This document shows, one piece after another, positions 14,471-37,273 of a DNA stretch of 48,468 bases. The translations under genes and the position numbers were made by a program. Within the stretch, counting starts at the first letter, position 1. Each line of letters begins with the position of its first letter. Source of the DNA: a virus; IMG/VR virus record IMGVR_UViG_3300029309_000072, positions 1 through 48,468 of that record. One strand, written 5' to 3'. The notes under the pieces were generated by a model. The model made no database searches. It was not told where the DNA came from and worked only from the letters and a program-made list of their open reading frames with translations.

Positions 14471-14687
14471 TATTCATCTCCATATAGTTTTTCATTAAGT
14501 TACAAAGTAATGCTTTCTGTTTTGACATCTTGTTTCCTTTTTCATAGAAACAAATAGATGACCTATCTTTGAAAGCTAAAAGATTTGCCATCTCTTGTTG
14601 AGTTTTATACATTTTTTTTCTTAGCAATTTTAAATCTTCGCTAGAAAATTCATAAAAACTTTCTGTAATTTGTTTAATATGCTTCAT
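14451..14687 (-). CDS. XRE-like helix-turn-helix regulator
   Basis: A 78-residue protein whose residues about 13-60 fit an XRE/Cro HTH: DLKLLRKKMYKTQQEMANLL, then FKDRSSICFYEKG and a third helix region QKALLCNLM. The start at 14687 is favoured by GGAG seven bases upstream. It sits in the operon whose promoter region has a variant of the dyad seen at other accessory promoters, so it is a candidate to bind that site and autoregulate. That link is inference. Confidence 0.7.
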   Translation of the reverse strand: MKHIKQITESFYEFSSEDLKLLRKKMYKTQQEMANLLAFKDRSSICFYEKGNKMSKQKALLCNLMKNYMEMNNDNGNA

Positions 14688-14826
14688 TACATTCTCCAAT
14701 AAACTTCGCTTCTTTACCAAATTGATATTTCATTCTTGTAATTGCATCACTCTTAGAGTAAGCACTCAAAGTCATTCTAGCACCAGTATCAAATTGTATT
14801 ATATATCTTTTTAATTCATCGTTCAT
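14674..14826 (-). CDS. Small hypothetical protein, first of the operon (50 aa)
   Basis: A 50-residue protein, MNDELKRYIIQFDTGARMTL followed by a helix with SKSDAITRMKYQFG. An AGGAGTAATA ribosome site and a promoter with TTGACT and TATGAT lie upstream. It overlaps the HTH gene by 14 bases. The strand-helix pattern is common in small phage proteins; function unknown. Confidence 0.7.
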   Translation of the reverse strand: MNDELKRYIIQFDTGARMTLSAYSKSDAITRMKYQFGKEAKFIGECNEAY

Positions 14827-14954: not shown

Positions 14955-15344
14955 ATGTTTAAAAAAATATCAATGATTTGTGCAACATCATTGCTGGTCA
15001 GTTGTGCAAGTAACCAATATATTATAGACCCAAAGAGTTCAACTAATCCAGAGAACTACTATGCTGATAAAATGGAATGTGAAAATATTTCTGAACAAGA
15101 ATCCTATACTAGCAATATTACTTGGGGTGCAATAAAGAGTGGAATACTAGGAGCAATAGCATCTGGTGCATTAGCATATGCTGGATTTTCAACTGGTAAT
15201 ATTAGTGTTCAAAATTCTGCAATAATTGGTGCTGGTGGTGGTGTTATTACTGGAGGAATATTCTCTGGTGCAAATACTTATAGCACTAGAAAAGAAATTG
15301 TGCGAAAATGTATGGAAGGAAGAGGATATAATATTTTAAAATGA
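14955..15344 (+). CDS. Lipoprotein with glycine-zipper region
   Basis: A 129-residue protein with a lipoprotein signal: MFKKISMICATSLLVSC, lipobox LVSC with lipidated Cys17. The mature part has two conserved-looking cysteines flanking a glycine-zipper hydrophobic region at about 60-110 (SGILGAIASGALAYAGF and IIGAGGGVITGGIFSG). Bacterial envelope lipoproteins of this form sit in the outer membrane. In a phage it could be a superinfection-exclusion lipoprotein or a lysis accessory; it is far from the holin/peptidase cluster. It has its own promoter and AAAAGGAG site. Confidence 0.8.
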   Translation: MFKKISMICATSLLVSCASNQYIIDPKSSTNPENYYADKMECENISEQESYTSNITWGAIKSGILGAIASGALAYAGFSTGNISVQNSAIIGAGGGVITGGIFSGANTYSTRKEIVRKCMEGRGYNILK

Positions 15345-22956: not shown

Positions 22957-24663
22957 ATGGAAAGACAACTAAACGAACAAGGAATTTATTTAACTTCCTA
23001 CAGTATTGGAACATATAAAACATTTTGTCCTAAATGTAGAAACAGTAGAAAGTCACAAAACCGACACGACACACCACTATCAGTTACGATTGAAAATGAC
23101 AAAGCATTATTTAATTGTCATAATTGTGACCACACTGGCATAGCAAGTGACAAACAAACTTATCAAACTGTACCTAAGTCAAATCCAGATAAATTAAATT
23201 CTTGGTTTCAAAAAAGAGGAATTAGCAAAAAGACAACAGACGATTTAGGAATCTATGAATGGAACGAGAATATTTGTTTTCCATATATTCAAGACGGAGA
23301 AACAAAGAATGTCAAATATAGAACTTATGATAAAAGGTTTAGACAAAAACCAAATGCTCAAAGAACTTTATATAATATTGACAATGTAAAAAAATATTGG
23401 AAAGCCACAGGAAGCAAAAATATTATAATTTGTGAAGGTGAGATGGATGTTATTGCATTTTATGAAGCTGGTGTTATAAATGCCGTATCACTTCCAGATG
23501 GTGCGCCTAAATCTGCAAAGTTTGATTTGAAAGATTTAAGATTTAGTGCATTAAAAAATTGTTCTTTTCTTAATGAGGTTGATAAAGTCTATATTGCAAC
23601 AGACCAAGACGAAGCTGGTAAAGCATTGCATCTGGAATTAGTGCATAGATTTGGTAAAGACAGATGTCTACGAGTCAAATTTCCAGACCAGCAAGGAGAC
23701 ATTCCAACTAAAGATGCAAATGAATGTTTAATGAAACTTGGAAGGAATACTCTAATACAATGCTTAAAAGATGCTATTCCATACCCTATAGATGGGATAC
23801 ACACAGTCAAGAATTACCAACAAGAAGTTTTTGATATCTATGAAGGTAAAATACAAAGACCCCTCTCTACAGGGTTTAAAATCCTTGATACGATATATAA
23901 AATTCAAGCTGGAACATTTCATTTGGTGACTGGTGTACCGAATCACGGAAAGTCAAATTTTATAGACCAATTAGCAGTCAATATGTTAAGAGAACACGGA
24001 TGGAAGTTTTGTATATTTTCTCCAGAGCATTCAACACCTCAACATATTAGAAGAATAGTAGAAAAGATTGTAAAGAAACCATTTGATGACGGAGTGTCTC
24101 AGAGGATGAGTGTAGAGGAATTAAATAGAGGTTTAAATGTTCTAAATAATAATTTTTATTTTATGGAAAACAAAAATGACATTCCCACGATTGATTGGAT
24201 ACTTGATAAAGCAAAGCAATCAGTATTGAAGTTTGGTGTAAAAGGGATTATAATTGACCCCTATAATGAGATAAACTCAACTAGAGAAGGGAATAAAAGA
24301 GAAGATGAACATATTAGAGATATTATCAGCAAAGTTAAAAAGTTTTGTAGAACACACGAAGTCACTATGTGGATGGTTGCCCACCCAAGTAAAATGCCTA
24401 GAGCAGAAGATGGTTCAATCCAAGTGCCGACCTTGTACGATGTTAGTGGTTCTGCTCATTGGAATAATATGTGTGATGTTGGTCTGGTAGTTGCTAGAAA
24501 TTTTGATACACAACAAACCAGAGTAATTACAAGAAAAGTTAGAGAGCAAGGATTGTATGGAAACATTGGAGAATGTTTTTTTAGATACGATTTATCAGAA
24601 AGAGTTTATAAAGAGGTAGTAGACTCATCCAAACCAGAAGCACAAACCCATTGGAATGATTGA
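22957..24663 (+). CDS. Primase-helicase, T7 gp4/Twinkle-like
   Basis: A 568-residue replication enzyme. A zinc ribbon has Cys24, Cys27, Cys54 and Cys57 (CPKC, CHNC). A TOPRIM domain follows with CEGEMD at 159-164 and DQDEAG from 216. The helicase part is a RecA/DnaB fold: Walker A GVPNHGKSN from 326 (Lys332), IIIDPYNEI as Walker B, MVAHPSK, and an arginine-rich end region. It should unwind DNA and lay primers as a hexamer. AAGGAGTAGTA precedes ATG. No DNA polymerase gene is seen nearby or anywhere in the window, so it probably works with host polymerase. Confidence 0.95.
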   Translation: MERQLNEQGIYLTSYSIGTYKTFCPKCRNSRKSQNRHDTPLSVTIENDKALFNCHNCDHTGIASDKQTYQTVPKSNPDKLNSWFQKRGISKKTTDDLGIYEWNENICFPYIQDGETKNVKYRTYDKRFRQKPNAQRTLYNIDNVKKYWKATGSKNIIICEGEMDVIAFYEAGVINAVSLPDGAPKSAKFDLKDLRFSALKNCSFLNEVDKVYIATDQDEAGKALHLELVHRFGKDRCLRVKFPDQQGDIPTKDANECLMKLGRNTLIQCLKDAIPYPIDGIHTVKNYQQEVFDIYEGKIQRPLSTGFKILDTIYKIQAGTFHLVTGVPNHGKSNFIDQLAVNMLREHGWKFCIFSPEHSTPQHIRRIVEKIVKKPFDDGVSQRMSVEELNRGLNVLNNNFYFMENKNDIPTIDWILDKAKQSVLKFGVKGIIIDPYNEINSTREGNKREDEHIRDIISKVKKFCRTHEVTMWMVAHPSKMPRAEDGSIQVPTLYDVSGSAHWNNMCDVGLVVARNFDTQQTRVITRKVREQGLYGNIGECFFRYDLSERVYKEVVDSSKPEAQTHWND

Positions 24664-25817
24664 TGAAAAATTCCAAATCAACATTTATGAAAATATATCA
24701 AGACACAAATGTTTTTGATAAGGCATTAGAAAGAATTAATTGGTTGTTTGATGAGTTTGATACTGTTGCAACAAATATTTCTGGGGGTAAAGATTCAACA
24801 GTAGTTTTAGAATTGTTGATAAAAGTAGCTAGGGAAAGAAAAAGACTTCCAGTCAAAGTTTTATTTTTAGACCAAGAAGCCGAATGGACTGAGACCATAC
24901 AACAAGTTAAATATTCAATGGAAAGAAAAGAAGTTGAACCCTATTGGTTTCAAATACCTTTTATAATTCAGAATGGAACATCAACTATAGATTGGTGGTT
25001 AAAGTGCTGGGATAAAGAAAAACAAGACAAGTGGATACACCCATATCAAGAAATATCATATAAAGAAAATGTCTATGGTTCAGATAGATTCTATAAAATT
25101 ATGGATTTAATTTACGAAAAAGAATGGGGTTCAAATATTGCTGTTTTAGGAGGAGTTAGAACTCAAGAGTCAGCAACTAGAAAACTTGGGGTTTGTGCTG
25201 ATGCAACCTACAAAGGAGAAACTTGGGGAGCAATCAGAAATAAAAAGAAAGGAATATATTCGTTTTATCCGATTTATGATTGGACTTTTCACGATATCTG
25301 GAAAGCAATACACGACAATGGATGGAGATATAATAAGGTTTATGACTCAATGTACCAATACGGACTTCCTTTTAGCAGTATGAGAGTTTCTAACCTTACA
25401 CACGAGACTGCAATCAAAAGTAATTTTTATGCACAAGAGATAGACCCTAATGTTTATGAAAGGCTTACACAAAGAATTGGTGGAATTGATATGGCCTCAA
25501 AATTTAATGAGGATTATTTTGTTAATGATTTACCTTATATGTTTAAAGACTGGACAGAATATAGAGACTATTTATTGGAGAACTTAACACAAGACAAATA
25601 CAAAAAATATTTCAAAGGATTGTTTAAGAGAAACCAAAACACATACGGAAGAATATTAGAACAAGTTCCAGAACTGTTAGTAAAATGTAGAAAGGCACAA
25701 ATCCAAAGTATTCTTACAAACGATTGGGAGGGTACAAAGATGGAAAACTTTAGACGATTACCTTTGTTAGCAAGGTATAGACGAGAAGAATTAGAAGGAG
25801 TTAAAAGTGACTTTTGA
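24663..25817 (+). CDS. PAPS reductase-family PP-loop protein, IbrA-like
   Basis: A 384-residue protein with the PP-loop SGGKDST at 40-46, then LFLDQEAEWTETIQQV and WIHPYQEISYKE. This matches the PAPS-reductase-like family that includes IbrA and phage relatives, which bind ATP and adenylate or transfer sulphur-type groups. It starts as TGATG over the primase stop and overlaps a ParB-like gene by 11 bases, the standard IbrA/IbrB pairing. The function of such phage pairs is unproven; roles in DNA thiolation-like modification (DndC is a relative) or gene regulation are inferences. It lacks the C-terminal cysteine motif of true sulphate-assimilation reductases. Confidence 0.85.
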   Translation: MKNSKSTFMKIYQDTNVFDKALERINWLFDEFDTVATNISGGKDSTVVLELLIKVARERKRLPVKVLFLDQEAEWTETIQQVKYSMERKEVEPYWFQIPFIIQNGTSTIDWWLKCWDKEKQDKWIHPYQEISYKENVYGSDRFYKIMDLIYEKEWGSNIAVLGGVRTQESATRKLGVCADATYKGETWGAIRNKKKGIYSFYPIYDWTFHDIWKAIHDNGWRYNKVYDSMYQYGLPFSSMRVSNLTHETAIKSNFYAQEIDPNVYERLTQRIGGIDMASKFNEDYFVNDLPYMFKDWTEYRDYLLENLTQDKYKKYFKGLFKRNQNTYGRILEQVPELLVKCRKAQIQSILTNDWEGTKMENFRRLPLLARYRREELEGVKSDF

Positions 25818-26364
25818 TAAACACCCAATAAGTAATATTAAGTGGATTAAGATTGATAAGGTACAAGCAAATAATTACAACCCAAATGCAGTTGCTAAAA
25901 ATGAGATGAATCTACTATACACATCAATCAAGGAGGATGGATATACACAACCGATTGTAACTATCTACGATAAAAAGATTAACAAATATATTATTGTTGA
26001 TGGATTTCACAGATATACAATTATGAGAATGTATAAAGATATATATGAAAGTACAGATGGGCATTTACCTGTCGTTGTTATAGAGAAAGGCATAGAGGAA
26101 AGAATGGCATCTACTGTACGACATAACAGAGCAAGAGGGAAACACAACATAAATGGAATGGCAAACATTGTATTCAATATGCTGGATAATGGAATGGATG
26201 ATAAAACAATATGCAACAAACTTGGATTATCAGCAGAGGAACTAATAAGATTGAAACATACGACAGGATTTAGTAAGCTATTTGAAAACACAGAATATTC
26301 AAAGGCTTGGGAAACACGAAGACAATTAGAATTGAGAAAAGAATATGAAAATAGAAACAGTTGA
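25807..26364 (+). CDS. ParB/Srx nuclease-like protein, IbrB-like
   Basis: A 185-residue protein starting at GTG with AAGGAG seven bases upstream. It has a ParB N-terminal fold: IDKVQANNYNPNAVAKNEMN, SIKEDGYTQPIV, and the GFHRY motif at 66-70; RHNRARG at 105-111 is the second basic motif. A helical part with KTICNKLGLSAEELIRLK looks like an HTH. These features match IbrB, the partner of the upstream IbrA-like protein. ParB-type domains can bind CTP or act as nucleases; which applies here is not visible. Confidence 0.85.
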   Translation: MTFDKHPISNIKWIKIDKVQANNYNPNAVAKNEMNLLYTSIKEDGYTQPIVTIYDKKINKYIIVDGFHRYTIMRMYKDIYESTDGHLPVVVIEKGIEERMASTVRHNRARGKHNINGMANIVFNMLDNGMDDKTICNKLGLSAEELIRLKHTTGFSKLFENTEYSKAWETRRQLELRKEYENRNS

Positions 26365-26929
26365 TATCAATACAATAAAACCTTATTGGCGTAACCCACG
26401 AAAAAACAACGATGCGATTGAAGCCATAAAAAATAGCATTACAAAATATGGATACAACAATCCTATTCTAATTGATAAAGATAATGTTATTATTTCTGGG
26501 CATACAAGATATATGGCGCTGAGGCAGTTACAAAAAAAAGATATTCCGATACTAAGACTAGATTTGTCAGAGCAAAAAGCAAAAGAGTTTAGGATAGTAG
26601 ATAACAAATCCTCAGAGTTAGCCTTATGGGATGATGAGAAACTTATGCAAGAACTGAGAGAAATATCTGACATTGATGATATGCAACAATATTTTAATGA
26701 TTTAGATTTGAATAAAATCATATCAGAAAATCTTGAGGTCAAACCGATTGAGGTGAGTGATGAAAATTTAGGCAAAACTCTGGAAGAACAAGAAGATAAT
26801 TTTGTTAATACTCAAGAAGAAAATCTACATAGAGTGATGTGTCCTCATTGTCTTAAAGAACATTATGTAAATAGAGAAGAGTTAAATAATTTTAAACCAG
26901 ATTGGCAAACAAAACTTGCAGAGGAATAA
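26345..26929 (+). CDS. Second ParB-like protein with C-terminal zinc motif
   Basis: A 194-residue protein with another ParB-like domain: INTIKPYWRNPRKNNDAIEA, KYGYNNPILIDKD and SGHTRY at 51-56. After an acidic linker comes CPHC (166-169) with His-containing follow-up, a likely zinc-binding knuckle. It overlaps the IbrB-like gene by 20 bases. Two successive ParB-fold proteins after a PP-loop protein suggest a three-gene functional unit. Phage ParB-like proteins with SGHTRY are also found near terminases and methyltransferases. Confidence 0.82.
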   Translation: MKIETVDINTIKPYWRNPRKNNDAIEAIKNSITKYGYNNPILIDKDNVIISGHTRYMALRQLQKKDIPILRLDLSEQKAKEFRIVDNKSSELALWDDEKLMQELREISDIDDMQQYFNDLDLNKIISENLEVKPIEVSDENLGKTLEEQEDNFVNTQEENLHRVMCPHCLKEHYVNREELNNFKPDWQTKLAEE

Positions 26930-26972
26930 GGGTCACTTCGGAGACAAACAAACAAACTTTAGTGACCCTTAT
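26926..26972. terminator. Long-loop inverted repeat between convergent operons
   Basis: ATAAGGGTCACT (26926-26937) pairs perfectly with AGTGACCCTTAT (26961-26972) around a 23-base loop containing CGGAG and ACAAACAAAC. It lies between the stop of the ParB-like gene and the convergent GGCT gene. It lacks a strong T run, so termination is likely but may need another factor. Confidence 0.6.
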
Positions 26973-26983
26973 ATGAGGTTGCT

Positions 26984-27403
26984 CTAAAACATATTATAAG
27001 CACTCTCTTTGTTAGCATCAGTTCTTGCATCATACAAAAACTTTTGGTCTAAAGAGAAGTCCTCATAACCCCTAGCGATTGTGTCAAAATAACTACGGCT
27101 AGGAGGAGCAATTCTATTTGTATTCATTGTATAAGTGAGGGCAACTTTACCATCAATATCAAAATACAACTTTCTATACAGATGAGGAAAACCTTCGTAG
27201 ATATCTAAGGCTTTTTCACAAGCATCTGAAATTTCCCAAAGACCCATAGGGCAACTTGCACCTTTGTACTCCTCAATGTCTGCAACACCTCTGAATACTA
27301 ATCTAAAGTCTGGTACAAGAATCTTTCCTAGTGGTTTTGCTAGAGGACAACGAAATTTCATTTGTCCTCTATGTAAGTTACTTCCATATGCTAAGTACAA
27401 CAT
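26984..27403 (-). CDS. Gamma-glutamylcyclotransferase-like enzyme (GGCT/AIG2)
   Basis: A 139-residue GGCT-fold protein. YGSN at 6-9 forms the substrate-binding loop; Glu70 in DIYEGFP is the expected catalytic acid; LYRKLYFDIDGKVALTYTM continues the barrel. The family releases 5-oxoproline from gamma-glutamyl amines. It overlaps the amidoligase stop as TAATG, so the two are translated together. This amidoligase/GGCT pairing is known from comparative genomics as a possible make-and-remove system for amide-linked amino acids. Its substrate here is unknown. Confidence 0.85.
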   Translation of the reverse strand: MLYLAYGSNLHRGQMKFRCPLAKPLGKILVPDFRLVFRGVADIEEYKGASCPMGLWEISDACEKALDIYEGFPHLYRKLYFDIDGKVALTYTMNTNRIAPPSRSYFDTIARGYEDFSLDQKFLYDARTDANKESAYNMF

Positions 27404-28470
27404 TATGCACTCCTTTCTTCGTTAAATCCATCAGTTCTGTCTTCGTAGTAACAAGCAACCAATTCATTGATTCCATCAAACAACTTGTCAGTTGAGGTAG
27501 TAACTTCTAAGTTTTTTGCTAAAGTTCTAAGACCTTCCATATTCAAAATACCAACGGCAGTCTTTCTGTTGTAAGAAGTATATAAGTGGGCATATACTCT
27601 GTCATAACTATATCTGACACTTGTTGAATCAGCACCACCTTTTGGATTATGGTTGATGAACTCAAAACCAAAACTTCTTTTTTGAACAAACTCAATCCCA
27701 AGAGTTGTCAAAGCAAACTTCATAACACCAAATGCTCTTTTTTTCTGGGCAGAAGTCACTTCAGCATTTGCATCAAAGTTAGTAGGAATAGCATTACCAT
27801 TTTTCTTACCGATTGAATTTTTAGACTCAAGAATAAAATCTGCTAAGAAAGCAATCCACATTCTGATTTTTAGAGCATTAGCAGTTCCAGAGTGATGTCT
27901 GAACTCAATAGTTCCCGTTCTACCATAAACACTTGTCAAATTTACTTTCTGTTGTCTTCTACTTTGTCTTGACAATGTTCTTGCACAATCAGAATCAAAG
28001 TTCATATTGATAAGAGAAGAACAATAAGAGTTAGAGTTTGCTCTTCTACTTCTTGGCATAAATGAATCAATCTGACTCTCAAATCTTTGGTAACGAGTAA
28101 CTATGCTTTTGATTACTGCACCATCTTCCTTGATACCATTCCAAGAGAAGTGAATGTGAAGTCCACAGTTTCTGTCAATGTTTGCATTTGCAGATTTAAG
28201 AACCTTACAAATCTTGTCAATCTGACCTAAGTCATTAAGTGTAAGGATTGGAGATACAAGTTCACCACCAATCATATTTCTTGGATTACTGTAAGAACCA
28301 CGACTTACTGTTCCATCCCAACAAATCTTCCAAGTATCAAAATTTGTATTGTTATGATATCCCTCAATGACTGAAGCAATACCAATGTCTTGAAGAAGTT
28401 TTTGTACCTTCTTAGCTGAAGCATCTTTAAATTCAATTTCAACTCCAAATGTTAGTTCGTTTTTTTCCAT
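27403..28470 (-). CDS. Amidoligase-family enzyme (glutamine synthetase-like fold)
   Basis: A 355-residue protein of the amidoligase family (PF12224), predicted ATP-dependent carboxylate-amine ligases. Metal/ATP residues are visible: FGVEIEF near residues 8-14 (Glu11, Glu13), the GLHIHFSW block with His105 and His107, and TIEFRHHSG around residue 190. It is the first gene of a two-gene cassette with its own promoter and ACTAGGAGA leader. It probably attaches an amino acid or amine to a protein, cell-wall or small-molecule carboxylate, which the GGCT-like partner could remove. Substrate unknown. Confidence 0.85.
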   Translation of the reverse strand: MEKNELTFGVEIEFKDASAKKVQKLLQDIGIASVIEGYHNNTNFDTWKICWDGTVSRGSYSNPRNMIGGELVSPILTLNDLGQIDKICKVLKSANANIDRNCGLHIHFSWNGIKEDGAVIKSIVTRYQRFESQIDSFMPRSRRANSNSYCSSLINMNFDSDCARTLSRQSRRQQKVNLTSVYGRTGTIEFRHHSGTANALKIRMWIAFLADFILESKNSIGKKNGNAIPTNFDANAEVTSAQKKRAFGVMKFALTTLGIEFVQKRSFGFEFINHNPKGGADSTSVRYSYDRVYAHLYTSYNRKTAVGILNMEGLRTLAKNLEVTTSTDKLFDGINELVACYYEDRTDGFNEERSA

Positions 28471-28509
28471 ATCGTATCTCCTAGTAAAAGTTTGTTTGTT
28501 TATACTAAC

Positions 28510-28559
28510 ATAGTACGAAATAAGTTGATGTATGTCAACAGTATTTAAAAATAAATATT
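28510..28559 (-). promoter_or_regulatory. Accessory promoter B (amidoligase cassette) with perfect dyad
   Basis: Minus strand: AATATTTATTT (28549-28559), nine bases, GTTGACA with -35 TTGACA (28533-28538), 17 bases, TACTAT (28510-28515). The dyad GTTGA-N6-TCAAC at 28524-28539 is identical to that at 13179-13194. The leader then has AACAAACAAAC and ACTAGGAGA. Confidence 0.85.
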
Positions 28560-28633
28560 AATTTTTTTTTCTAACAATATCAATGACTTACAAGGATTGA
28601 ATAATTTTTTTTGTTGATGGGTATAAATAATTG

Positions 28634-28663
28634 TTGATTTTTAGAAACTTTTTGTGTTATAAA
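28634..28663 (+). promoter_or_regulatory. Promoter for the 28689 operon
   Basis: TTGATT (28634-28639), 17-18 bases, TTATAAA (28657-28663), then AAAGGAG before ATG 28689. It diverges from the amidoligase promoter; the 218-base region between also holds TCAATGACTTACAA, a motif that recurs near the other accessory promoters. Confidence 0.7.
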
Positions 28664-28688
28664 TATATAAACAAATAAAGGAGTTAAT

Positions 28689-28922
28689 ATGAATTTAGAT
28701 ATTATAAAATTAGATGACATTGGAGTAAGGGTTGACTTTGCTCTAAGAAACTCAGATTCATTTCAAGAGTTTAGAGAGATTTGTGTAGATGCCTTTCTCA
28801 ACTATGGAGAAGTTGAATTAGGAATCAATCAAGGTACATCTGCTGAGATATTTATGGCAAACGATTATGATTCTGAATTACTAGAATTATGGAATAGAAA
28901 CTGTAATAAGTATAGGGAGTAA
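28689..28922 (+). CDS. Hypothetical acidic protein (77 aa)
   Basis: A 77-residue acidic protein: IIKLDDIGVRVDFALRNSDS, then FQEFREICVDAFLNYGEVEL and a helix YDSELLELWNRNCNK. Good AAAGGAG site. It precedes a larger unknown gene by three bases. I do not recognise a family. Confidence 0.7.
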   Translation: MNLDIIKLDDIGVRVDFALRNSDSFQEFREICVDAFLNYGEVELGINQGTSAEIFMANDYDSELLELWNRNCNKYRE

Positions 28923-28925
28923 AAG

Positions 28926-29972
28926 ATGAAAACAAAATATGAAAACTTTTTACAACATCTGATTCACGGAATTGATGAGCCACAAAAAACTTTTGTTAAT
29001 CATAATAAAATTGGTTTTACTAAAGATAGGTTTGCTCTTAAAGGTAAGTTGTTATCAGCAACAAAGATATTTTTAAGTGACGATTTTGTAAATAAACAAT
29101 TTGTCAAATATAGTGCTAAGTGCAAAAAAGATTTAGATAAGAAGAATAAGAAATTAACTTGCCCAATAGAAATTAGAGAACTACACCAAGAGTTATTTAG
29201 CAACTCACTTCCTCTTTATGATAATATGTTAATATTATTTCCCTACACTGTGACATTAAAAAAGCTAGAATTTATGGCTGGGTGTTGGATTAGAAGATTT
29301 AAGCCATCTAGTAATTCTAGGATTATCAGCAAAACTGGATTATTAAGTAAAATAAAAGATACATCAGCATTATATATCATTAGCACATTTGACAATTCTT
29401 GTAAGTATCACGGATATGATGAAAGATTAAATTTAAGTTTGGTTGACTACTTCATAGACTTCAGTGGACAAATTAGTGATATTCATACAAAAGCAAAAGA
29501 TGATTTTTTTATGAAAGAGGAGTTTGGTGATTTTATAGAGCCAGTAAAAAAGTCATATGGAAATTTCATTGATTTTGCTCCATCAACTATGCACGGAGAA
29601 AATATTAACTTTCATAAATTGACAGAAGCTGTTATGTCTGTTCAGACTTTTAAATCACAATTAAGTATCCTAACCTATCTTAATCTTTTACAATTCATTA
29701 ATGCAAAGGGTTCAGAAACTATTCCATTCAAATCACATCTACCAATAAAGAAAAGAAGTAATGTAATAAAAGGTTTTGAATACAAAATGCTTGAAGTAAA
29801 AAAAGCCAATACTATCACAACTAGATATGGAGATTCAATTAATAAGAATAGATTACATCAAGTTAGAGGTCATATGAGACATTATCAAAGTGGTAAAAGA
29901 ACTTGGATTAAATCACACGAGAGAGGTGATGAAAAGATGGGAGTAATAATCAAAGATTATAACTTCAAATAA
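28926..29972 (+). CDS. Unknown 348-aa protein with a conserved C-terminal HxxRGH block
   Basis: A 348-residue soluble protein with AGGGAG upstream. The first 250 residues are mixed helix/strand with no motif I know (AGCWIRRFKPSSNSRIISKT). The last 45 residues contain RLHQVRGHMRHYQSGKRTW, IKSHERGDEKMG and VIIKDY, a basic His/Arg block found at the end of various phage proteins of unknown function (RGH-R...W...H.RG). It may bind nucleic acid. It lies between the amidoligase cassette and the terminase genes. Confidence 0.65.
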   Translation: MKTKYENFLQHLIHGIDEPQKTFVNHNKIGFTKDRFALKGKLLSATKIFLSDDFVNKQFVKYSAKCKKDLDKKNKKLTCPIEIRELHQELFSNSLPLYDNMLILFPYTVTLKKLEFMAGCWIRRFKPSSNSRIISKTGLLSKIKDTSALYIISTFDNSCKYHGYDERLNLSLVDYFIDFSGQISDIHTKAKDDFFMKEEFGDFIEPVKKSYGNFIDFAPSTMHGENINFHKLTEAVMSVQTFKSQLSILTYLNLLQFINAKGSETIPFKSHLPIKKRSNVIKGFEYKMLEVKKANTITTRYGDSINKNRLHQVRGHMRHYQSGKRTWIKSHERGDEKMGVIIKDYNFK

Positions 29973-30039
29973 AATTTGCTAAATGACAACTTTATGATTA
30001 AAATATGATTAAATTTTTTACATAGTATAAGGAGAATAA

Positions 30040-30228
30040 ATGTTTAGTTTTATTACAAATCTATTTAAATCCAAACCAAAAAGACCAATGACTATAAGTC
30101 GTTTACATATTATGACTAAGAAAGAACTAGAAACATTTGGTCGCAAGAACGGAATAGAACTTGATAGAAGGTTTCATAAAAACGATTTGGTAGACCAGTT
30201 ATTCAAGCATCTACAGAAAAAAAAGTAG
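30040..30228 (+). CDS. SAP/HeH-like small protein near the terminases
   Basis: A 62-residue protein: a hydrophobic start (MFSFITNLFKSKPKRP) then MTKKELETFGRKNGIELDRR and FHKNDLVDQLFKHL, a helix-extended loop-helix pattern as in SAP/LEM/HeH DNA-binding domains. AAGGAGAATAA precedes ATG. Such small proteins often lie just before terminase genes in phages, but a packaging role is not proven. Confidence 0.7.
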   Translation: MFSFITNLFKSKPKRPMTISRLHIMTKKELETFGRKNGIELDRRFHKNDLVDQLFKHLQKKK

Positions 30229-30343
30229 GTGTCTTAGTATTCTGACTATGGCAAACACTTGATGAGAGTCCTTATATTGCCTTAATATTTGACAAAATGT
30301 CTAAAATAATTGAAATTATGCTGATTCGTGGTATTTTATTATT

Positions 30344-30892
30344 ATGACTAGGCACAATGCAGATATAATAGAACTTATAAGACAAGAGTATGTTCAAGGA
30401 ATTGTAGATGCCAATGGTGTAAGGTCATATCCAACAATAGATGAGTTATCAAAAAAACACTCAATACCTTCAATCACTTTGTATAGGAAATCTCAAGGAG
30501 AAGAATGGAAAAAACAAAAAGCTGATTTTCAAGAAACTTTAAGAATTGAAATAGACAAAGAGAAAAGAAAAAAGATGGCAAAAGATTCTATTGAATTTGA
30601 TGAGAATAATTTACGATTAGCAAAAGCCTTACAAAATGAAATTGTTGCATTAATTACATTGTCAAACAAGAAAAGAACTGAAGGAGAGAAAAGACCATTT
30701 TTTTCTGCAAGTTCCTTAAACAGTTTGGGTATGGCATTAATGACCTGTCAAAAGGTAGGGCGATTAGCATTAGGAGAATCAACTGACAACACAAACATCA
30801 CAACAACAGAGTCCACAGTTAACGAGGCTTTCCAACTTATTGACGAAATATTCAGAGGAAAGTCAAAAGAAAGCGACTCTCAATTACATTAA
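30344..30892 (+). CDS. terS: Terminase small subunit-like protein
   Basis: A 182-residue protein directly before the large terminase. Residues about 1-60 form an HTH-like region (IIELIRQEYVQGIV, YPTIDELSKKHSIPSITLY, RKSQGEEWKKQK) typical of DNA-recognising small terminases; the rest is helical with KRPFFSASSLNSLGMALMTCQ. It should recognise the packaging site. It overlaps the large subunit by 53 bases. No strong ribosome site before ATG 30344. Confidence 0.8.
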   Translation: MTRHNADIIELIRQEYVQGIVDANGVRSYPTIDELSKKHSIPSITLYRKSQGEEWKKQKADFQETLRIEIDKEKRKKMAKDSIEFDENNLRLAKALQNEIVALITLSNKKRTEGEKRPFFSASSLNSLGMALMTCQKVGRLALGESTDNTNITTTESTVNEAFQLIDEIFRGKSKESDSQLH

Positions 30893-32105
30893 ATACTGGA
30901 AACTTGCTAGAGACAAACAAGTGACTCCTCTAGGGGATTGGAATGTATGGTTGATACTTGCTGGTAGAGGTTTTGGTAAAACTTGGACTGGAGCATATGA
31001 CATAGTAAATTATGCAATGACACATCCAAATACAATAAGTGCAGTCCTTGCTCCTACATTTGGTGACTTGAGAAGAGTGTGTTTTGAGGGTGTAAGTGGA
31101 ATAAATCAGTTGATACCTATAGAATGTTATTACAATTCAAGAGCAACTGGATATAACAGAAGTACATCGGAGATTAAATTATGGAATGGGTCAAAAATTG
31201 TTGGATTCTCTGCAAGTGAGCCAGATAGACTTAGAGGAAGCCAGTATCATAGGGCGTGGTGTGACGAGTTGGCGGCGTGGAGATATCCAGAGGCATATGA
31301 CCAACTGCAATTTGGTTTGCGATTAGGAAAGAATCCACAAGTTGTAATAACTACAACTCCCAGACCAACACCAATAATAAAAGAACTAATGAAGAGAGCA
31401 GAGGATGATGTTTATGTAACTCAAGGGTCAACCTTTGAAAATAAAGAAAATCTTGCTCAGTCAGCTTTAAAACAGTTTGTAGATAGGTATGAAGGAACAA
31501 GATTAGGTAGACAAGAACTGTATGCAGAAATACTTGATGACTTTGAAGGTGCATTATGGAATTACACTATGCTGGAGGATTGTAGGGTTACTAAAGAACA
31601 TTTACCAGAAATGACCAAAATAATTGTCAGCATTGACCCAGCCGTTACAGCCAACGCAAATTCTGATGAGACAGGCATTATTGTTTCAGCGTTAGGTGAG
31701 GATGAAAAATATTATATACTAGAGGACAAAACTGGTAAATATTCTCCAGATGAATGGGGAAGGGTTGCCATAGAACTGTTTTATCGCTATAATGCCAATA
31801 TGATTGTTGCCGAGGTAAACAATGGTGGCGATTTGGTGGAAAGATTATTACGAAGTATTGAACGAAATATTCCTTATAAATCAGTCCACGCAACAAGAGG
31901 AAAGATGGTGAGAGCAGAGCCAATTTCTGCTTTATACGAACAAGGAAAGGTATATCACTTGGGAACTTTTCCAAAATTGGAGGAACAAATGTGTTCTTTT
32001 ACAGGAGATAACAGAGGGGCATCTCCAGATAGATTAGATGCTTTGGTTTGGGGTTTAACTGAACTAAGTATCTCAAACGGAAAACCAATTTGGAGAATAA
32101 GCTAA
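30840..32105 (+). CDS. terL: Terminase large subunit (packaging ATPase and nuclease)
   Basis: A 421-residue motor protein. ATPase: Walker A AGRGFGKT at 41-48 and Walker B WCDELAAW (Asp142, Glu143), plus TTTPRPTP as the coupling motif. Nuclease: Asp266 in SIDPAV, Glu325 in VAEVNNGG and Asp400 in SPDRLDAL form the RNase H-like site. The frame begins at TTG 30840 with GAGG about ten bases upstream, inside the small subunit gene; no ATG is near, so TTG is the probable start. The stop overlaps the portal start. Confidence 0.95.
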   Translation: MTKYSEESQKKATLNYIKYWKLARDKQVTPLGDWNVWLILAGRGFGKTWTGAYDIVNYAMTHPNTISAVLAPTFGDLRRVCFEGVSGINQLIPIECYYNSRATGYNRSTSEIKLWNGSKIVGFSASEPDRLRGSQYHRAWCDELAAWRYPEAYDQLQFGLRLGKNPQVVITTTPRPTPIIKELMKRAEDDVYVTQGSTFENKENLAQSALKQFVDRYEGTRLGRQELYAEILDDFEGALWNYTMLEDCRVTKEHLPEMTKIIVSIDPAVTANANSDETGIIVSALGEDEKYYILEDKTGKYSPDEWGRVAIELFYRYNANMIVAEVNNGGDLVERLLRSIERNIPYKSVHATRGKMVRAEPISALYEQGKVYHLGTFPKLEEQMCSFTGDNRGASPDRLDALVWGLTELSISNGKPIWRIS

Positions 32106-34441
32106 TGGGTATATTTGATAATTTTAAAAAAATCTTTAAGAAACAAATCACAACAAAACAAGCGCCTATAACAATGATGAATAATGTTGGTTATTCAGCA
32201 CCAAGAAAAGATAGTTACCAACAGTATGCTCAAGAAGGATATCAGCAAAACGCAGTTGTCTATAAATGTATCAATGAGATTGCTAATGGTGCGTCTGCTG
32301 TTGACCTCTGTGTATATGATGATGACATCAAGTTGGATGCCCATCCCCTTCTAAACTTACTGGATAGACCAAATCCATTACAAGCTGGTAACGAATATTT
32401 TAAATCCTTGTATTCATTTTTGCTTATAGCTGGAAACAGTTATGCTTTGAGAGTGGGTGCAGAGAACGGAGAACCACGAGAACTGTATTTACTTAGACCA
32501 GATAGGGTGAAAGTCAAACCAAGTAATAATATGATTCCTAGAGGGTATATTTACGAGGTAGGTGGTAAGGTAATAAAAGAATATGATGTAGACCCACAGA
32601 CAGGACAAAGTGAAGTCAAACATTTTAAGCTATGGAATCCAATAGACGATTATTACGGATTAAGTCCTATTCATTCAGCTAGTACAGATATTGACCAACA
32701 CAATTTTGCCGCCAAACACAATGTCAGTCTGTTAATGAATGGCGCAAGACCAAGTGGTGCGATTGTGTTTAAACCAAAAGATGAAGCTGGACAATCAGTT
32801 CAACTTACTGAATACCAAAGGGCGCAACTTTTACAAGATATGCAAGTAAGGTTTCAAGGAACAGATAATAGTGGAAGACCAATGCTGTTGGAAGGTGACT
32901 TTGACTGGAAAGAAATGGGATTAAGTCCGAAGGATATGGACTTCTTACAATTAAAAAATATGAGTGCAAGAGACATAGCAATGTGTTTTGGTGTACCCAG
33001 TCAACTTATTGGGATACCAGATGCACAGACTTATTCAAACATACAAGAAGCAAGACTAGCATTATATGAAGAAACAATTATTCCATTGATAAGAAGAGTT
33101 GAATCTGACTTGAATGAATACCTAGCACCATTATATGGTGAGTCAATAAATCTTAGATACGATATTGATTCTATACCAGCAATGGCAGAACGAAGAAAAC
33201 GAATCTATGAAAATGTTACTGTTGCAGTAAGAGAAGGAATCATATCAAGGAATGAAGCAAGAGAACGATTAGGACTAGAACCAATCTCTGGTGGAGATGA
33301 TGTTTACATTGCCGCCAATCTTTTCCCATTAGGTGAACCACAAGAATCACCATTAGAAGACGAAAAGCCTAATCCAGATAAGGAAGCCGAAGATGCCTAT
33401 GGATATAAAGCAGAAGTCAGAAGAGATGTTTTCACAACAAGAGAAGAAGCTGAAGAAAGGGCAAATGAAATAGGATGTCAAGGAACACACTTCCACGACT
33501 CAGATGGGGAGAGAGTTTATATGCCTTGTGCATCGCATAGTGATTACAGAGAACTTACTGGGAGAGATTTAAAGTATCATACTGCTGACCCAGAGTATTT
33601 AGTAAATCAAGAAATAAGACGAGATGTATTTACAAGTCAAGAAGAAGCAGAGGATAGAGCAGAGGAGATAGGATGTGAAGGATTCCATACACACGATGAA
33701 GAAGGTAACATTGTGTATATGCCGTGCAGAACCCACGAAGAGTATACAAGATTGACAGGAGAAGAGTTAAAACAAATAGACCTAAAACCGACTGAAGGTA
33801 TGGCAACTGAAGCAAAAAGAGCATTAGAATGGAGAAAAGAATTTAAGAGAGGTGGTACTGCTGTTGGTGTTGCAAGAGCAAATCAACTTGTAAACAGAGA
33901 AAATCTTTCTGAAAGAACTGTTCTTAGAATGTATAGTTTCTTTTCCAGACACGAGGTAGACAAACAAGCAGAAGGTTTTGAACGAGGTGAAAAAGGATAT
34001 CCGAGTGCTGGAAGGATAGCTTGGGGTCTATGGGGTGGAGATGCTGGATTTACTTGGAGTACAAAGAAAAGAGAACAAATAAATAAAGAGATAGAAAAGT
34101 TAGCTTGTGCAGATAACGAAGAGAAAGCCGTAAGTGGTAAAATAAAAAAGGCATTAGAAAAAAAGGTCAAAGACCACAACGATAAGCACGGAGACAAAAA
34201 AGGTAAACGAGTTACTGTTGGTATGCTTGGTAAAGTTTTTGTCAGAGGTGTAGGAGCATACCGAACAAACCCACAATCAGTACGACCAAATGTGACAGGG
34301 CCAGACCAATGGGGTCTTGCACGAGTAAATGCCTTTCTGTTTGCAGTCAGAAGTGGTAGATTTAGAAGTGGACAGTTTGATAGAGATTTACTTCCAAAAG
34401 ACCATCCCTTATATAGAGCAAAAGAAAAAGACAAAAAGTAA
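32105..34441 (+). CDS. Portal protein with three extra C-terminal domains
   Basis: A 778-residue protein; ordinary HK97-type portals are about 400-450. Start at ATG 32105 (GGAG 9 bases upstream). Residues about 1-430 are the portal (PF04860): NAVVYKCINEIANGASAVDL, LLNLLDRPNPLQAG, SLLMNGARPSGAIV and FGVPSQLIGIPDAQTYSNIQ. Then come two tandem copies of a Cys/His unit at about 437-490 and 502-556, each with RRDVFT, EEIGC or NEIGC, HxHD, YMPC and an H-x-x-Y end, likely zinc-binding. Next a helical part (about 565-650, GLWGGDAGFTWS) and an end domain (about 690-765, VFVRGVGAYRTNP, DRDLLPKDHP). The extra parts are of unknown use in capsid entry or packaging. Confidence 0.88.
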   Translation: MGIFDNFKKIFKKQITTKQAPITMMNNVGYSAPRKDSYQQYAQEGYQQNAVVYKCINEIANGASAVDLCVYDDDIKLDAHPLLNLLDRPNPLQAGNEYFKSLYSFLLIAGNSYALRVGAENGEPRELYLLRPDRVKVKPSNNMIPRGYIYEVGGKVIKEYDVDPQTGQSEVKHFKLWNPIDDYYGLSPIHSASTDIDQHNFAAKHNVSLLMNGARPSGAIVFKPKDEAGQSVQLTEYQRAQLLQDMQVRFQGTDNSGRPMLLEGDFDWKEMGLSPKDMDFLQLKNMSARDIAMCFGVPSQLIGIPDAQTYSNIQEARLALYEETIIPLIRRVESDLNEYLAPLYGESINLRYDIDSIPAMAERRKRIYENVTVAVREGIISRNEARERLGLEPISGGDDVYIAANLFPLGEPQESPLEDEKPNPDKEAEDAYGYKAEVRRDVFTTREEAEERANEIGCQGTHFHDSDGERVYMPCASHSDYRELTGRDLKYHTADPEYLVNQEIRRDVFTSQEEAEDRAEEIGCEGFHTHDEEGNIVYMPCRTHEEYTRLTGEELKQIDLKPTEGMATEAKRALEWRKEFKRGGTAVGVARANQLVNRENLSERTVLRMYSFFSRHEVDKQAEGFERGEKGYPSAGRIAWGLWGGDAGFTWSTKKREQINKEIEKLACADNEEKAVSGKIKKALEKKVKDHNDKHGDKKGKRVTVGMLGKVFVRGVGAYRTNPQSVRPNVTGPDQWGLARVNAFLFAVRSGRFRSGQFDRDLLPKDHPLYRAKEKDKK

Positions 34442-36093
34442 TGTTTACTAAGAAACAAGTAAAACAAACTTTTTTCAATTCCAAAAAAAGAATAAACATC
34501 CGTAGAGAGTTTGCATCACAGAATAGACTAAGGATAAACTTTGAACGAAAGCTAAGAAAGCAACTCAAGGGATACTTTACTAAGGTGTTCAATGATTTCG
34601 CAACAGAGTACGAGAATATGGGATTGATTGAGACAGCATTCTCAAGAAACCAAGATATGATATTTAAGATACTTGATAATCATTACAGAGTTGTCATAGA
34701 GGCATTTGGTACGAGGATGCTTAAACAATTTACAAAAGAAGATTCCCAATTTGAAGCAATCTACAGGGAGTTTGCTAGAGAACACACAGGGAAAAACATT
34801 GTTGGTATTAATCAAACCACAAGAAAGCACATAGCCAAAATTGTAACGATTAACCTTACCGAAAATCTGGGAGTTGCACAGATAGCAAAAAAAATACGAG
34901 AAGAAAGCGACAGTAGGTTTACTAAATTAAGAAGTGCCACGATTGCTAGAACGGAGACACACAATGCCTCAAGTTTTGCAAATCATAGGATTGCACAGTC
35001 AATGAACATACCAGACCAACAAAAGCAATGGGTTGCTACTCTGGATAACAGAAGCAGAGATGCACATTTAGCAATGAATGGTAAGACAGTACCAATAGAC
35101 GAGGATTTTATCGTTGGTGGTAGACCTATGGGGTATCCAAGCGACCCTAGAGGTGGTGCAAGTAATGTTATCAACTGTAGGTGTGTTGTTATCTATACAT
35201 CACCAGAAGATGTGATTACAGACGATACAACATTAACTCCAAAACCAAGACAAGCACGAGATTTACCAAAGCCAGTTCAGTTTAGTATTACTGATGTAGT
35301 TATAGCTAGAAATTTAAGAGGAACAGATACACCAAAAGATTATGATAGGAAACTATTAGATGGAACAAATGAAACACAAAAAAAAGTTATGGCAAATTTA
35401 CCAAAACCAAGAGCAATTATTGGTGGTAGTGGATATATGGAGTGGGGTACTCATACTCTTTCTTCACCTCTAACAAGAAGCACATTAGTCCACGAGTACG
35501 GACACCACATTGACCAACAAATAGGATATTTAGAGAAACTTGGAAAAACAGAAGCAATCAACAAAACAAAAAAAGGATTTGATGGAAGTAACTTAGGATT
35601 TACTCAAGGAAATAAAGAGTTAAGAGAAGCATTTGAAAAAGATAAAGATAAGCTAAAATTTGGTAAACTAACAACAGTTCCAAAAAAAGATAGAGAGGAA
35701 TATAAAAGACTGAGGGAAAGAAATTTACAAGGATTTAGGGATGAGTTATTTACCATAAAAAAAGACACTATAAGAGAAGTCAATTTGGGAGATGGAGTGA
35801 AAGGGGTGATTACAACGAGAGGAAAAAAAGAATTTAAATACAAGAACTCAGATTCGCTTTCAGATATTGTAGATGGTATGGTCAAAGGTGATTTTAGATA
35901 TACCTATGATACTTTTGGTCACTCCAGAGGTTATTGGAAAAAAAGGAAAGATAGAGATTTATCTGAAACTTTTGCTAATTTCTTTTCTGCATATGCTGAT
36001 GAAGGTGGTAAGGCATTTATGCAAAAATATATTCCGAATACATTTAAGATTATGGAGAAAAAGTTAATAGAGATATCAAACCTACCAAACTAA
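34441..36093 (+). CDS. MuF-like minor head protein fused to a zinc metallopeptidase-like domain
   Basis: A 550-residue protein starting at the portal stop. Residues about 130-255 are the Mu gpF-like head domain (PF04233): ATIARTETHNASSFANHRIA, DNRSRDAHLAMNGKTVP and ASNVINCRC. The C-terminal region (about 285-550) has HEYGHH at 351-356, an HExxH zinc site, with a likely third ligand Glu509 in SETFANFFSAY, giving a zincin fold. MuF proteins with C-terminal enzymatic domains are a described polymorphic toxin class carried in virions. Peptidase activity and substrate are inferred. Most MuF minor head proteins are shorter and lack this domain. Confidence 0.85.
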   Translation: MFTKKQVKQTFFNSKKRINIRREFASQNRLRINFERKLRKQLKGYFTKVFNDFATEYENMGLIETAFSRNQDMIFKILDNHYRVVIEAFGTRMLKQFTKEDSQFEAIYREFAREHTGKNIVGINQTTRKHIAKIVTINLTENLGVAQIAKKIREESDSRFTKLRSATIARTETHNASSFANHRIAQSMNIPDQQKQWVATLDNRSRDAHLAMNGKTVPIDEDFIVGGRPMGYPSDPRGGASNVINCRCVVIYTSPEDVITDDTTLTPKPRQARDLPKPVQFSITDVVIARNLRGTDTPKDYDRKLLDGTNETQKKVMANLPKPRAIIGGSGYMEWGTHTLSSPLTRSTLVHEYGHHIDQQIGYLEKLGKTEAINKTKKGFDGSNLGFTQGNKELREAFEKDKDKLKFGKLTTVPKKDREEYKRLRERNLQGFRDELFTIKKDTIREVNLGDGVKGVITTRGKKEFKYKNSDSLSDIVDGMVKGDFRYTYDTFGHSRGYWKKRKDRDLSETFANFFSAYADEGGKAFMQKYIPNTFKIMEKKLIEISNLPN

Positions 36094-36289
36094 ATAAGAT
36101 ATTTTTTTTTCTTTCTTTTGGTATTTTTTTTCCACTAACTAAAGCATCAATGATGATATCTGATTCCAATTCAAACCAATTACTTGAATTTGGTTCTGGC
36201 TCTTCACCAAAGACCTTTTTATACAAGTCACGATAGTCTTGTGGGGTCTTGGCTTTATTTAAAGCATCTATAATTTCTTCTTTTGTCAT
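36050..36289 (-). CDS. Small protein convergent with the MuF gene
   Basis: A 79-residue protein: MTKEEIIDALNKAKTPQDYR, KVFGEEPEPNSSNWFELESD and a hydrophobic end (ILFSLVGLISLL) encoded over the 3' end of the MuF gene (44-base overlap in opposite strands). AGGAGTAATATT precedes ATG, and it has its own promoter. It is the gene next to a MuF-toxin-like fusion, so an immunity role is worth testing, but its opposite strand is not the usual toxin/immunity arrangement. Confidence 0.65.
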   Translation of the reverse strand: MTKEEIIDALNKAKTPQDYRDLYKKVFGEEPEPNSSNWFELESDIIIDALVSGKKIPKERKKNILFSLVGLISLLTFSP

Positions 36290-36308
36290 AATATTACTCC
36301 TATATAAG

Positions 36309-36337
36309 TTTATACATTGTTGTTACACATAAATCAA
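36309..36337 (-). promoter_or_regulatory. Promoter for the 36289 gene
   Basis: Minus strand: TTGATT (36332-36337), 17 bases including AACAACA, TATAAA (36309-36314). It directly follows, in the direction of transcription, the terminator at 36342-36373. Confidence 0.75.
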
Positions 36338-36341
36338 ATAC

Positions 36342-36373
36342 AAAAAAAAAGGGTCATTACGACCCTTCTTTTT
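36342..36373. terminator. Bidirectional terminator in the moron
   Basis: AAGGGTC-ATTAC-GACCCTT with nine A before and CTTTTT after. On the minus strand it ends in nine T, an ideal rho-independent terminator for the genes at 36400-37187; on the plus strand it could stop readthrough from the MuF gene. Confidence 0.9.
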
Positions 36374-36399
36374 CAGCAATGTATTTTTATTTTTCTAAT

Positions 36400-36633
36400 C
36401 TAAACTAAGATAAATGGATTTAAATATGTACCAATAAACAAATTTTTACCAGTATAATCCATTTTATATATATTTTTTTCAATAATCCAATCTATGTAAC
36501 TTCCATCAGTATTAAAAATGTCTATATTTGCTTTTTCTACATTCACCCATCTTGCATTGCCACCCGATATAACATACACATAAACACCAGTGGCTTTTTT
36601 TATTAATTTTTTTAATTGATTTTCTTTTCTCAT
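36400..36633 (-). CDS. Small hypothetical protein (77 aa)
   Basis: A 77-residue protein: basic start (MRKENQLKKLIKKATG), then a beta-rich part VYVYVISGGNARWVNVEKAN and IYKMDYTGKNLFIGTYL. CTAGGAGAAAAA leader identical in form to the two genes upstream. Function unknown. Confidence 0.7.
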   Translation of the reverse strand: MRKENQLKKLIKKATGVYVYVISGGNARWVNVEKANIDIFNTDGSYIDWIIEKNIYKMDYTGKNLFIGTYLNPFILV

Positions 36634-36646
36634 TTTTTCTCCTAGT

Positions 36647-36880
36647 TTAATATCTTTGTATTAATATTTCTTCCCACATATCTAAAGCCATCTCATCCCT
36701 TTTTTTTCGTCCAGAAATGATATATTGAACTTTTTGATATGCTGATTTATTAGCAGTCTTATAATCCATACCTAAGTCAATACATCTTTTTACTTCAGAA
36801 ATATATCTGACTTCACAGTTATGGTCTTTGGCGTGTCTATATGACCTTTCATTAATTTTATATACTTTGTTATTTTTCAT
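36647..36880 (-). CDS. Small basic hypothetical protein (77 aa)
   Basis: A 77-residue basic helical protein: MKNNKVYKINERSYRHAKDH, MDYKTANKSAYQKVQYIISG and KKRDEMALDMWEEILIQ. The start at 36880 is set by the CTAGGAGAAAAA leader; a longer frame upstream overlaps the previous gene and lacks one. Function unknown; the charge suggests nucleic-acid or protein binding. Confidence 0.7.
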   Translation of the reverse strand: MKNNKVYKINERSYRHAKDHNCEVRYISEVKRCIDLGMDYKTANKSAYQKVQYIISGRKKRDEMALDMWEEILIQRY

Positions 36881-36908
36881 TTTTTCTCCTAGTTTGTTTG
36901 TTTTTATT

Positions 36909-37187
36909 TTATGCACTTTCTTTTTCATTATGTACATCTTCTTGAACTTCAACATTAGTGTAATCATAATCATCTTCTATTGTATCATTTGCCCAAGCTA
37001 TTAAATCCTTTGCTAATTCTAATGCTTCTGTTCTGTTAAGATTTACACAGTTCATATCATCAGTAGATTGCATCCAATTAGTATTAGGGTTTCTTTTTGT
37101 CAAGACACTTAATCTTGCTCCATCAAAACCAGCATATTGTCTTAAACTTATTGTTCTTGTGTTTGATGATTTAACTCTTTTTCCCAT
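36909..37187 (-). CDS. Small hypothetical protein, first of the moron (92 aa)
   Basis: A 92-residue protein: NTRTISLRQYAGFDGARLSV, then VNLNRTEALELAKDLIAWAN and an acidic end (EDDYDYTNVEVQEDVHNEKE). The strand-then-helix form with RxEALELAKDLxxWA is common in small phage proteins. Its leader has AACAAACAAACAAACTAGGAG. Transcribed from accessory promoter C. Function unknown. Confidence 0.72.
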   Translation of the reverse strand: MGKRVKSSNTRTISLRQYAGFDGARLSVLTKRNPNTNWMQSTDDMNCVNLNRTEALELAKDLIAWANDTIEDDYDYTNVEVQEDVHNEKESA

Positions 37188-37222
37188 TTGTTTTCTCCTA
37201 GTTTGTTTGTTTGTTTGTTATC

Positions 37223-37273
37223 TTATAATACCAAATTGTTGTTCTATGTCAACACCAAATGCAAATAAATATT
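37223..37273 (-). promoter_or_regulatory. Accessory promoter C (moron)
   Basis: Minus strand: AATATTTATTT (37263-37273), nine bases, GTTGACA with -35 TTGACA (37247-37252), 17-18 bases, ATTATA/TTATAA (37223-37229). The dyad at 37238-37253 has one mismatch from GTTGA-N6-TCAAC. Confidence 0.8.

Follow-up and report, generated by a model that had tools for sequence, protein, structure and literature searches.

What would a virus do with a predicted amide-bond-forming ligase that it encodes back to back with an enzyme of the family that removes gamma-glutamyl groups? The question is raised by the window analysed here, the whole 48,468-nt stretch of IMG/VR record IMGVR_UViG_3300029309_000072, in which two overlapping minus-strand open reading frames were confirmed at 27403-28470 (355 aa) and 26984-27403 (139 aa). 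Together they are a two-enzyme cassette of a siphophage, with the following basic features:

27403-28470, minus strand: Amidoligase_2, a GS-fold carboxylate-amine ligase of 355 aa (PF12224, phrog_2443, YbdK/GS fold, invariant active site)
26984-27403, minus strand: gamma-glutamylcyclotransferase (GGCT) of 139 aa (phrog_2520, human GGCT fold, E70 alignment)
27401-27414, minus strand: translational coupling, from sequence, with SD-like AGGAG at 27414-27410 and stop/start TAATG at 27405-27401
28478-28482, minus strand: SD-like AGGAG of the amidoligase, from sequence, also in the relatives L002 and L003
26926-26972, no strand: 12-bp perfect hairpin, terminator-like without a T-run, between the convergent GGCT and ParB-like genes (z -4.4 and -4.0)

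At the amidoligase/GGCT junction (AAGGAGTGCATAATG) the TAA stop and the ATG start overlap as TAATG, preceded by the SD-like AGGAG, and the translational coupling claimed in the initial annotation is thus visible in the DNA itself. Its placement of the cassette on the strand opposite to both neighbours is likewise borne out, both flanking genes (26345-26929 and 28689-28922) being on the plus strand. Pfam and PHROG scans identified the neighbours as PAPS-reductase-like, two ParB-like, primase/helicase, terminase and unknown proteins, and the whole record encodes a single amidoligase. PADLOC held no model matching the amidoligase or GGCT, and its calls on the neighbours (DndC and BrxP models for the PAPS-like gene, an MTase_II model for the ParB-like gene) are weakly informative. 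A consensus scan for terminators was uninformative on its own.

Several other features of the window were observed in passing. The PAPS-reductase/DUF3440-like gene and the two ParB-like genes that follow it (24660-26929) form a block commonly found beside the pair in other phages, which we take to resemble IbrA/IbrB; it is replaced in the related 48.8-kb record IMGVR_UViG_3300030103_001630 (hereafter G165), where window positions 24641-26847 are unmatched. Near the cassette, a 348-aa protein (28926-29972) has a conserved C-terminal part and is otherwise strongly divergent from its counterparts in G165 and L002. A 300-nt direct repeat near both ends (1-300 and 48066-48365, 87% identical) either represents a paralogous tail-fibre sequence or is left over from a joined end, and a small predicted lipoprotein (14955-15344; lipobox LVSC, glycine-rich segment, no Pfam match) is a possible exclusion protein.

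The proposed identity of the enzyme pair stands up to Pfam, PHROG and fold comparison. The amidoligase matches PF12224 (Amidoligase_2) at E 2.7e-31 with 109.8 bits, above the cut-off of 22, and phrog_2443 at 2.9e-35. Its predicted structure (pLDDT 85.9, pTM 0.77, the C-terminal part least confident) has as its best solved fold in Foldseek the E. coli carboxylate-amine ligase YbdK (1r8g, E 5.5e-6), followed by glutamine synthetases, gamma-glutamylmethylamide synthetase, gamma-glutamylcysteine ligase and Dop/PafA, all of them, like YbdK, enzymes of glutamate gamma-carboxyl chemistry. Whole-length TM-scores are low (about 0.35), and the fold matches therefore support a superfamily, not a substrate; a PDB sequence search with the amidoligase profile gave no match. 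Across 46 diverse amidoligases G9, E11, E13, Y38, W47, D52, E70, P74, G103, H105, H107, E189 and R191 are invariant, including all of the GS-like active-site Glu, His and Arg residues (E11, E13, E70, H105, H107, E189, R191), so that the loss of key residues in homologues, named at the outset as evidence against the proposal, is not what was found. By computation the protein belongs to the YbdK/GS/GCL/PafA superfamily as an intact amide ligase with the GS fold, for which ATP-dependent amide-bond formation is predicted from family and fold.

The smaller protein matches the gamma-glutamyl cyclotransferase family phrog_2520 at 3.8e-24 and falls below the Pfam cut-offs (21.7 against 22.8 bits for GGACT, PF06094; 22 against 27 for AIG2_2, PF13772). 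Its predicted structure (pLDDT 95.5) matches human gamma-glutamyl cyclotransferase (2i5t/2rbh, Foldseek 8.9e-10), which the family profile also finds in the PDB at 8e-16. We accordingly place it in the GGCT/AIG2-like superfamily via phrog_2520, the PDB profile match and the fold, outside PF06094 and PF13772. Across 49 GGCTs Y6, G7, S8, N9, D67 and E70, among others, are invariant, the YGSN and LDxYEG residues as a whole being nearly or fully so, and in a weak pairwise alignment E70 falls on the LDEQEG Glu of human GGCT, the catalytic Glu of that enzyme. By computation the cyclotransferase, too, is an intact GGCT-fold enzyme.

If the two enzymes act as a unit, they should travel together. Using amidoligase and GGCT profiles built here, and counting a locus as paired when a GGCT lay within 3 kb, we found 79 of 80 bacterial-genome loci retrieved by the amidoligase to be paired, always on the same strand and with a median gap of 59 nt; these 80 loci represent one clade, mostly Clostridia and including Mollicutes. 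Viral loci were paired in 39/79 cases when anchored on the amidoligase and in 56/78 when anchored on the GGCT, 15 of the remaining 22 lying near a contig end. When pairing is mapped on a tree built from 109 amidoligases, it requires 9 changes as compared with 33.9 in shuffles; some clades (the Porphyromonas type, for example) are unpaired, and the window's clade is paired throughout. Annotated phage records also contain the two genes together repeatedly. Far from being rare, as would have counted against the initial annotation, joint occurrence is well above chance.

A cassette inverted against both neighbours, as in the window, was seen at 36 of 96 paired viral loci. In a set of 66 non-redundant paired loci, genes for terminase, portal and helicase and genes of ParB-like and PAPS-reductase-like type are often found beside the pair, usually on the other strand. 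In 25-26 of the 66 the terminase genes are upstream on that strand, and no third cassette gene emerged. The comparison with other phages that had been suggested thus returns a real pair, and the genes frequently beside it reflect the insertion site. The pair itself is already known: it is annotated in many prophages and goes back to a proposal of Iyer et al. 2009, cited in PMC11318856, PMC11253131 and PMC5498523. It is common in phages and mobile elements, and since 2009 its target has only been guessed, with the idea of a wall target repeated between papers.

Three observations on related loci may be recorded here. Porphyromonas-type amidoligases without GGCT (L011, L028, L029) have an N-terminal 100 aa that looks helix-turn-helix-like by eye. 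Clostridia phages carry, upstream of the amidoligase, a paralogue (L009:5866-6594, L016:3825-4562, L015:3475-4269), sometimes itself annotated as amidoligase, that keeps the C-terminal segment and lacks the catalytic motifs; it is possibly an adaptor. At L032:3758-3958 a 66-aa zinc-ribbon-like ORF (CPLC...CPTC) overlaps the GGCT end just before the terminase, and several Clostridia-type phages have small ORFs of similar size between GGCT and terminase.

The window cassette has control elements of its own, which recur elsewhere in the record:

28510-28538, minus strand: promoter TTGACA-17-TACTAT, from a consensus scan, conserved in L002 and L003
28524-28539, no strand: operator-like dyad GTTGATGTATGTCAAC overlapping the -35 box, identified by recurrence and conserved in G165
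13179-13194, no strand: sister operator, an exact copy of GTTGATGTATGTCAAC before another minus-strand small-gene cassette (dyad search)
37238-37253, no strand: sister operator with one mismatch to GTTGATGTATGTCAAC, before a third minus-strand small-gene cassette (dyad search)
28574-28591, minus strand: conserved element GTAAGTCATTGATATTGT upstream of the promoter (three sites found, 0.21 expected)

The promoter consensus match alone is uninformative (10 found, 12.5 expected from shuffles); it is because the dyad recurs and is conserved that we regard the promoter/operator as probably functional. This recurrence at two other inverted cassettes, and its retention in a relative, are new from this analysis. 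The upstream element GTAAGTCATTGATTTTAT is present at all three promoter/operator sites, a count of 3 against the 0.21 expected, and each of the three promoters faces a minus-strand cassette of small genes. G165 retains three such promoters, with different sequence downstream of the one at 37 kb (window 36900-37190 unmatched). The claim of a separate transcription unit with its own promoter and operator-like dyad is therefore upheld, GTTGATGTATGTCAAC recurring twice and being conserved in relatives, and we infer that the three sites are accessory-gene slots under one phage regulator. A small minus-strand ORF at 14451-14720, by eye similar to an XRE-type regulator and a candidate for binding the operator, gave no match in Pfam.

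Comparison with the nearest relatives, L002 (amidoligase 90%, GGCT 96%) and L003/L111 in G165, divided the amidoligase into two parts of very different history:

27807-28470, minus strand: amidoligase catalytic domain, about residues 1-221 (94% protein identity to L003/L111, DNA flank 92.8%)
27409-27805, minus strand: exchanged C-terminal module, about residues 222-353 (no nucleotide match to the L003 counterpart)

At the DNA level the window and L003/L111 are 92.8% identical over 27806-28693 and 91.8% over 26848-27408, with nothing matched between; the unmatched module is 397 nt in the window and about 340 nt in L003. Protein identity is correspondingly 94% in the catalytic part, 29% in the C-part and 98% in the GGCT. 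A second pair from different metagenome records (L115/L118) is 94.2% identical before the module and 99.8% after it, with GGCT at 99% and the module unmatched. In these two clear cases, then, catalytic domain and GGCT are 94-99% identical and a C-module of roughly 100 residues has been replaced; L242/L260 show the same shape of exchange at lower overall identity, as a third and more diverged case. A frameshift as the source of the divergence was rejected because the module DNA itself is without a match.

The module also tracks the partner gene. The C-part is about 116 aa in paired amidoligases compared with about 29 aa in unpaired ones, and a long C-part was found in 21/27 paired and 5/25 unpaired proteins (Fisher p 7e-5, amidoligase-queried loci only; p 8e-5 for C-part length against pairing over all loci). 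A Pfam scan of ten different C-modules gave no convincing domain; by eye the modules look like one diverged family. Mollicute and Clostridia amidoligases have a short, conserved C-part, the swap being confined to the other subfamily. Exchange around a constant catalytic core would fit the pattern of a target-recognition domain, with an eraser that sees only a constant group staying unvaried. The module exchange, the most informative feature of the cassette, is new from this analysis; our literature search, which covered few subscription papers, found no published description of the exchanged module or of the regulated, inverted set-up. Its use is as a handle on the real target: near-identical enzymes that differ in the module can be compared for binding or modification.

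We postulate, at somewhat less than even confidence, that the cassette combines a target-specific gamma-glutamyl-type ligase, a variable recognition module and an erasing or clean-up cyclotransferase, used in conflict. First, the ligase would form an amide between an amine on a specific cytoplasmic target and the gamma-carboxyl group of either glutamate or a Glu residue. Second, recognition of the target would fall to the variable C-module, the target probably being a factor of the host or of a competitor phage that is variable in its turn. Lastly, the cyclotransferase would act on the constant group, releasing a terminal gamma-glutamyl as 5-oxoproline, and by such a release it would either undo the mark or remove stray gamma-glutamyl amines that the ligase has produced. 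The role would be exclusion of other phages or counter-defence, rather than an obligatory change to peptidoglycan. The fold neighbours of the ligase support this reading in that their chemistry at the Glu gamma-carboxyl matches what a GGCT acts on; gamma-glutamyl specificity, the module's part and the conflict role are our inferences. As a counterpoint to the conflict reading, both enzymes working on the same bond simultaneously would amount to a futile cycle. GGCT is missing from the surroundings of about half of the viral loci anchored on the amidoligase, and the ligase can therefore work alone. The narrower proposal, that the GS-fold ligase marks chosen proteins with glutamate (gamma-glutamylation), that a generic cyclotransferase erases the mark and that the exchange of about 100 residues re-aims the chemistry, we consider unlikely. 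The make-and-remove chemistry of the initial annotation is plausible.

The published alternative is that the ligase attaches an amine or amino acid to wall peptide precursors and the cyclotransferase trims gamma-glutamyl products, the altered wall excluding other phages; peptidoglycan modification was proposed for the cassette of phiEco32- and LUZ24-like phages (Iyer et al. 2009, as relayed in PMC5498523, PMC11253131 and PMC11318856). The window phage encodes an M15-type endolysin, from which we take its host to be walled, in keeping with such a role. The best bacterial-genome matches to the Clostridia-type profile, however, are in Mollicutes or close to them: L031 (a Bacilli MAG), L032 (the isolate Acholeplasma equifetale ATCC 29724) and L033 (a Tenericutes MAG). 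Unlike two Clostridia controls, these three genomes gave no match to the Mur ligase N-domain, none of MraY type and none to MurA above the cut-off. Among 160 genomes scanned from the same order, two more intact amidoligases were found, both with GGCT: G012, which lacks Mur ligase, and G138, which we left out of the wall-less count on account of weak Mur ligase matches. No penicillin-binding transpeptidase was found in G001, G002, G003 or G012. On the 337-kb A. equifetale contig the prophage is followed, by eye, by fatty-acid-synthesis, recN and transporter genes, and the Anaeroplasmataceae phage L019 also carries the pair. Between L031 and L032, dN/dS is 0.115 for the amidoligase and 0.126 for the GGCT (simple counting method, dS about 0.5). 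Intact pairs without wall genes, together with these low ratios, suggest that wall-less hosts maintain a functional pair, at least within the Mollicute/Clostridia subfamily.

Such pairs in wall-less Mollicute prophages, which are new from this analysis, argue against an obligatory peptidoglycan target, with purifying selection seen in one comparison, and they weaken the cell-wall peptide among the target options first listed. Three further points go the same way. The amidotransferase, ATP-grasp and second ligase of the phiEco32/PSA-HP1 type were not found among the scanned neighbours; GGCT requires a free alpha-amine on the gamma-glutamyl group, and the D-Glu of the stem peptide has none; and a variable module would be unexpected for a near-constant substrate. 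The Mollicute result need not carry over to the window's subfamily, where a wall role is possible, and overall we judge peptidoglycan modification unlikely. The wall-less hosts make the guess testable and less likely as a general role. As a separate observation, the Mollicute amidoligases (L019, L031, L032, L033) are 79-88% identical, whereas for GGCT L019 and L033 share only 54-61% identity with the other loci; GGCT thus evolves faster there, the reverse of the window's group.

Auxiliary metabolism, in which the pair would turn over gamma-glutamyl amines, polyamines or glutathione-like thiols and thereby provide the infected cell with nitrogen or amino acids, seems to us quite unlikely. It draws on the closeness of the GGCT to the human enzyme, which acts on gamma-glutamyl dipeptides, and on Phage-ZRK32, for which auxiliary metabolism has been proposed: both gene families are listed there and the phage is said to promote nitrogen use, although the growth effect is not tied to the amidoligase or GGCT genes (PMC10945688). 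A metabolic enzyme, however, needs no module swapped among near-identical phages, and the form of the pair, a small accessory cassette under an operator of its own and carried by phages whose hosts differ widely, sits poorly with such a role.

Modification of the phage's own virion, with the ligase decorating or cross-linking head or tail proteins and the module following variable tail proteins, is very unlikely. The cassette does adjoin terminase and portal in 25-26/66 loci, and tail-fibre stretches (581-2540 and 3163-4637) also differ between window and G165, a co-variation seen in one comparison. The adjoining head genes, however, are conserved (96-98% matches at 29692-36899 in the same comparison) while the module is not, and since the cassette runs against the structural genes it is probably not co-expressed with them. 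That hosts sense the C-module and so drive its change, the ligase substrate being fixed, has equally little likelihood: exchange limited to one part of the protein, with both active sites untouched, would fit, but escape leaves unexplained why the long module tracks GGCT presence, and we know of no sensing system for an amidoligase protein.

The conflict reading can be set against several known systems. Podoviruses of the phiEco32/LUZ24/PSA-HP1 type (Iyer et al. 2009; PMC5498523) carry amidoligase and GGCT in a phage, as the window does, and add a glutamine amidotransferase, an ATP-grasp enzyme and a second ligase, none of them among the scanned neighbours of the window pair. Clostridia pairs (Terrisporobacter phage TPDSL_ph1, C. 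clostridioforme LM41 prophages, Tn6164, Ca. Heliusvirales gut phages) share families, order and strand with the window pair and are, like it, usually near terminase. In the records examined they are mostly co-directional with terminase, whereas the window pair is inverted; unlike the window, they often have an upstream amidoligase paralogue that is degenerate, together with a C-part that is short and conserved, and amidoligase identity to the window protein is only about 20-25%. YbdK (1r8g), the best fold match, is about 10% identical and has no variable module, and to our knowledge no paired GGCT. The Pup ligase PafA and depupylase Dop, also matched by Foldseek, make and remove amides at a Glu gamma-carboxyl on the GS fold; in the window the eraser is of the unrelated GGCT fold, and no Pup-like protein is among the proteins identified. 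The BtrJ/BtrG pair of butirosin is a protect-and-deprotect system in which a ligase adds a gamma-glutamyl group and a GGCT-fold enzyme removes it; BtrJ is an ATP-grasp enzyme of an antibiotic pathway, whereas the window ligase has the GS fold.
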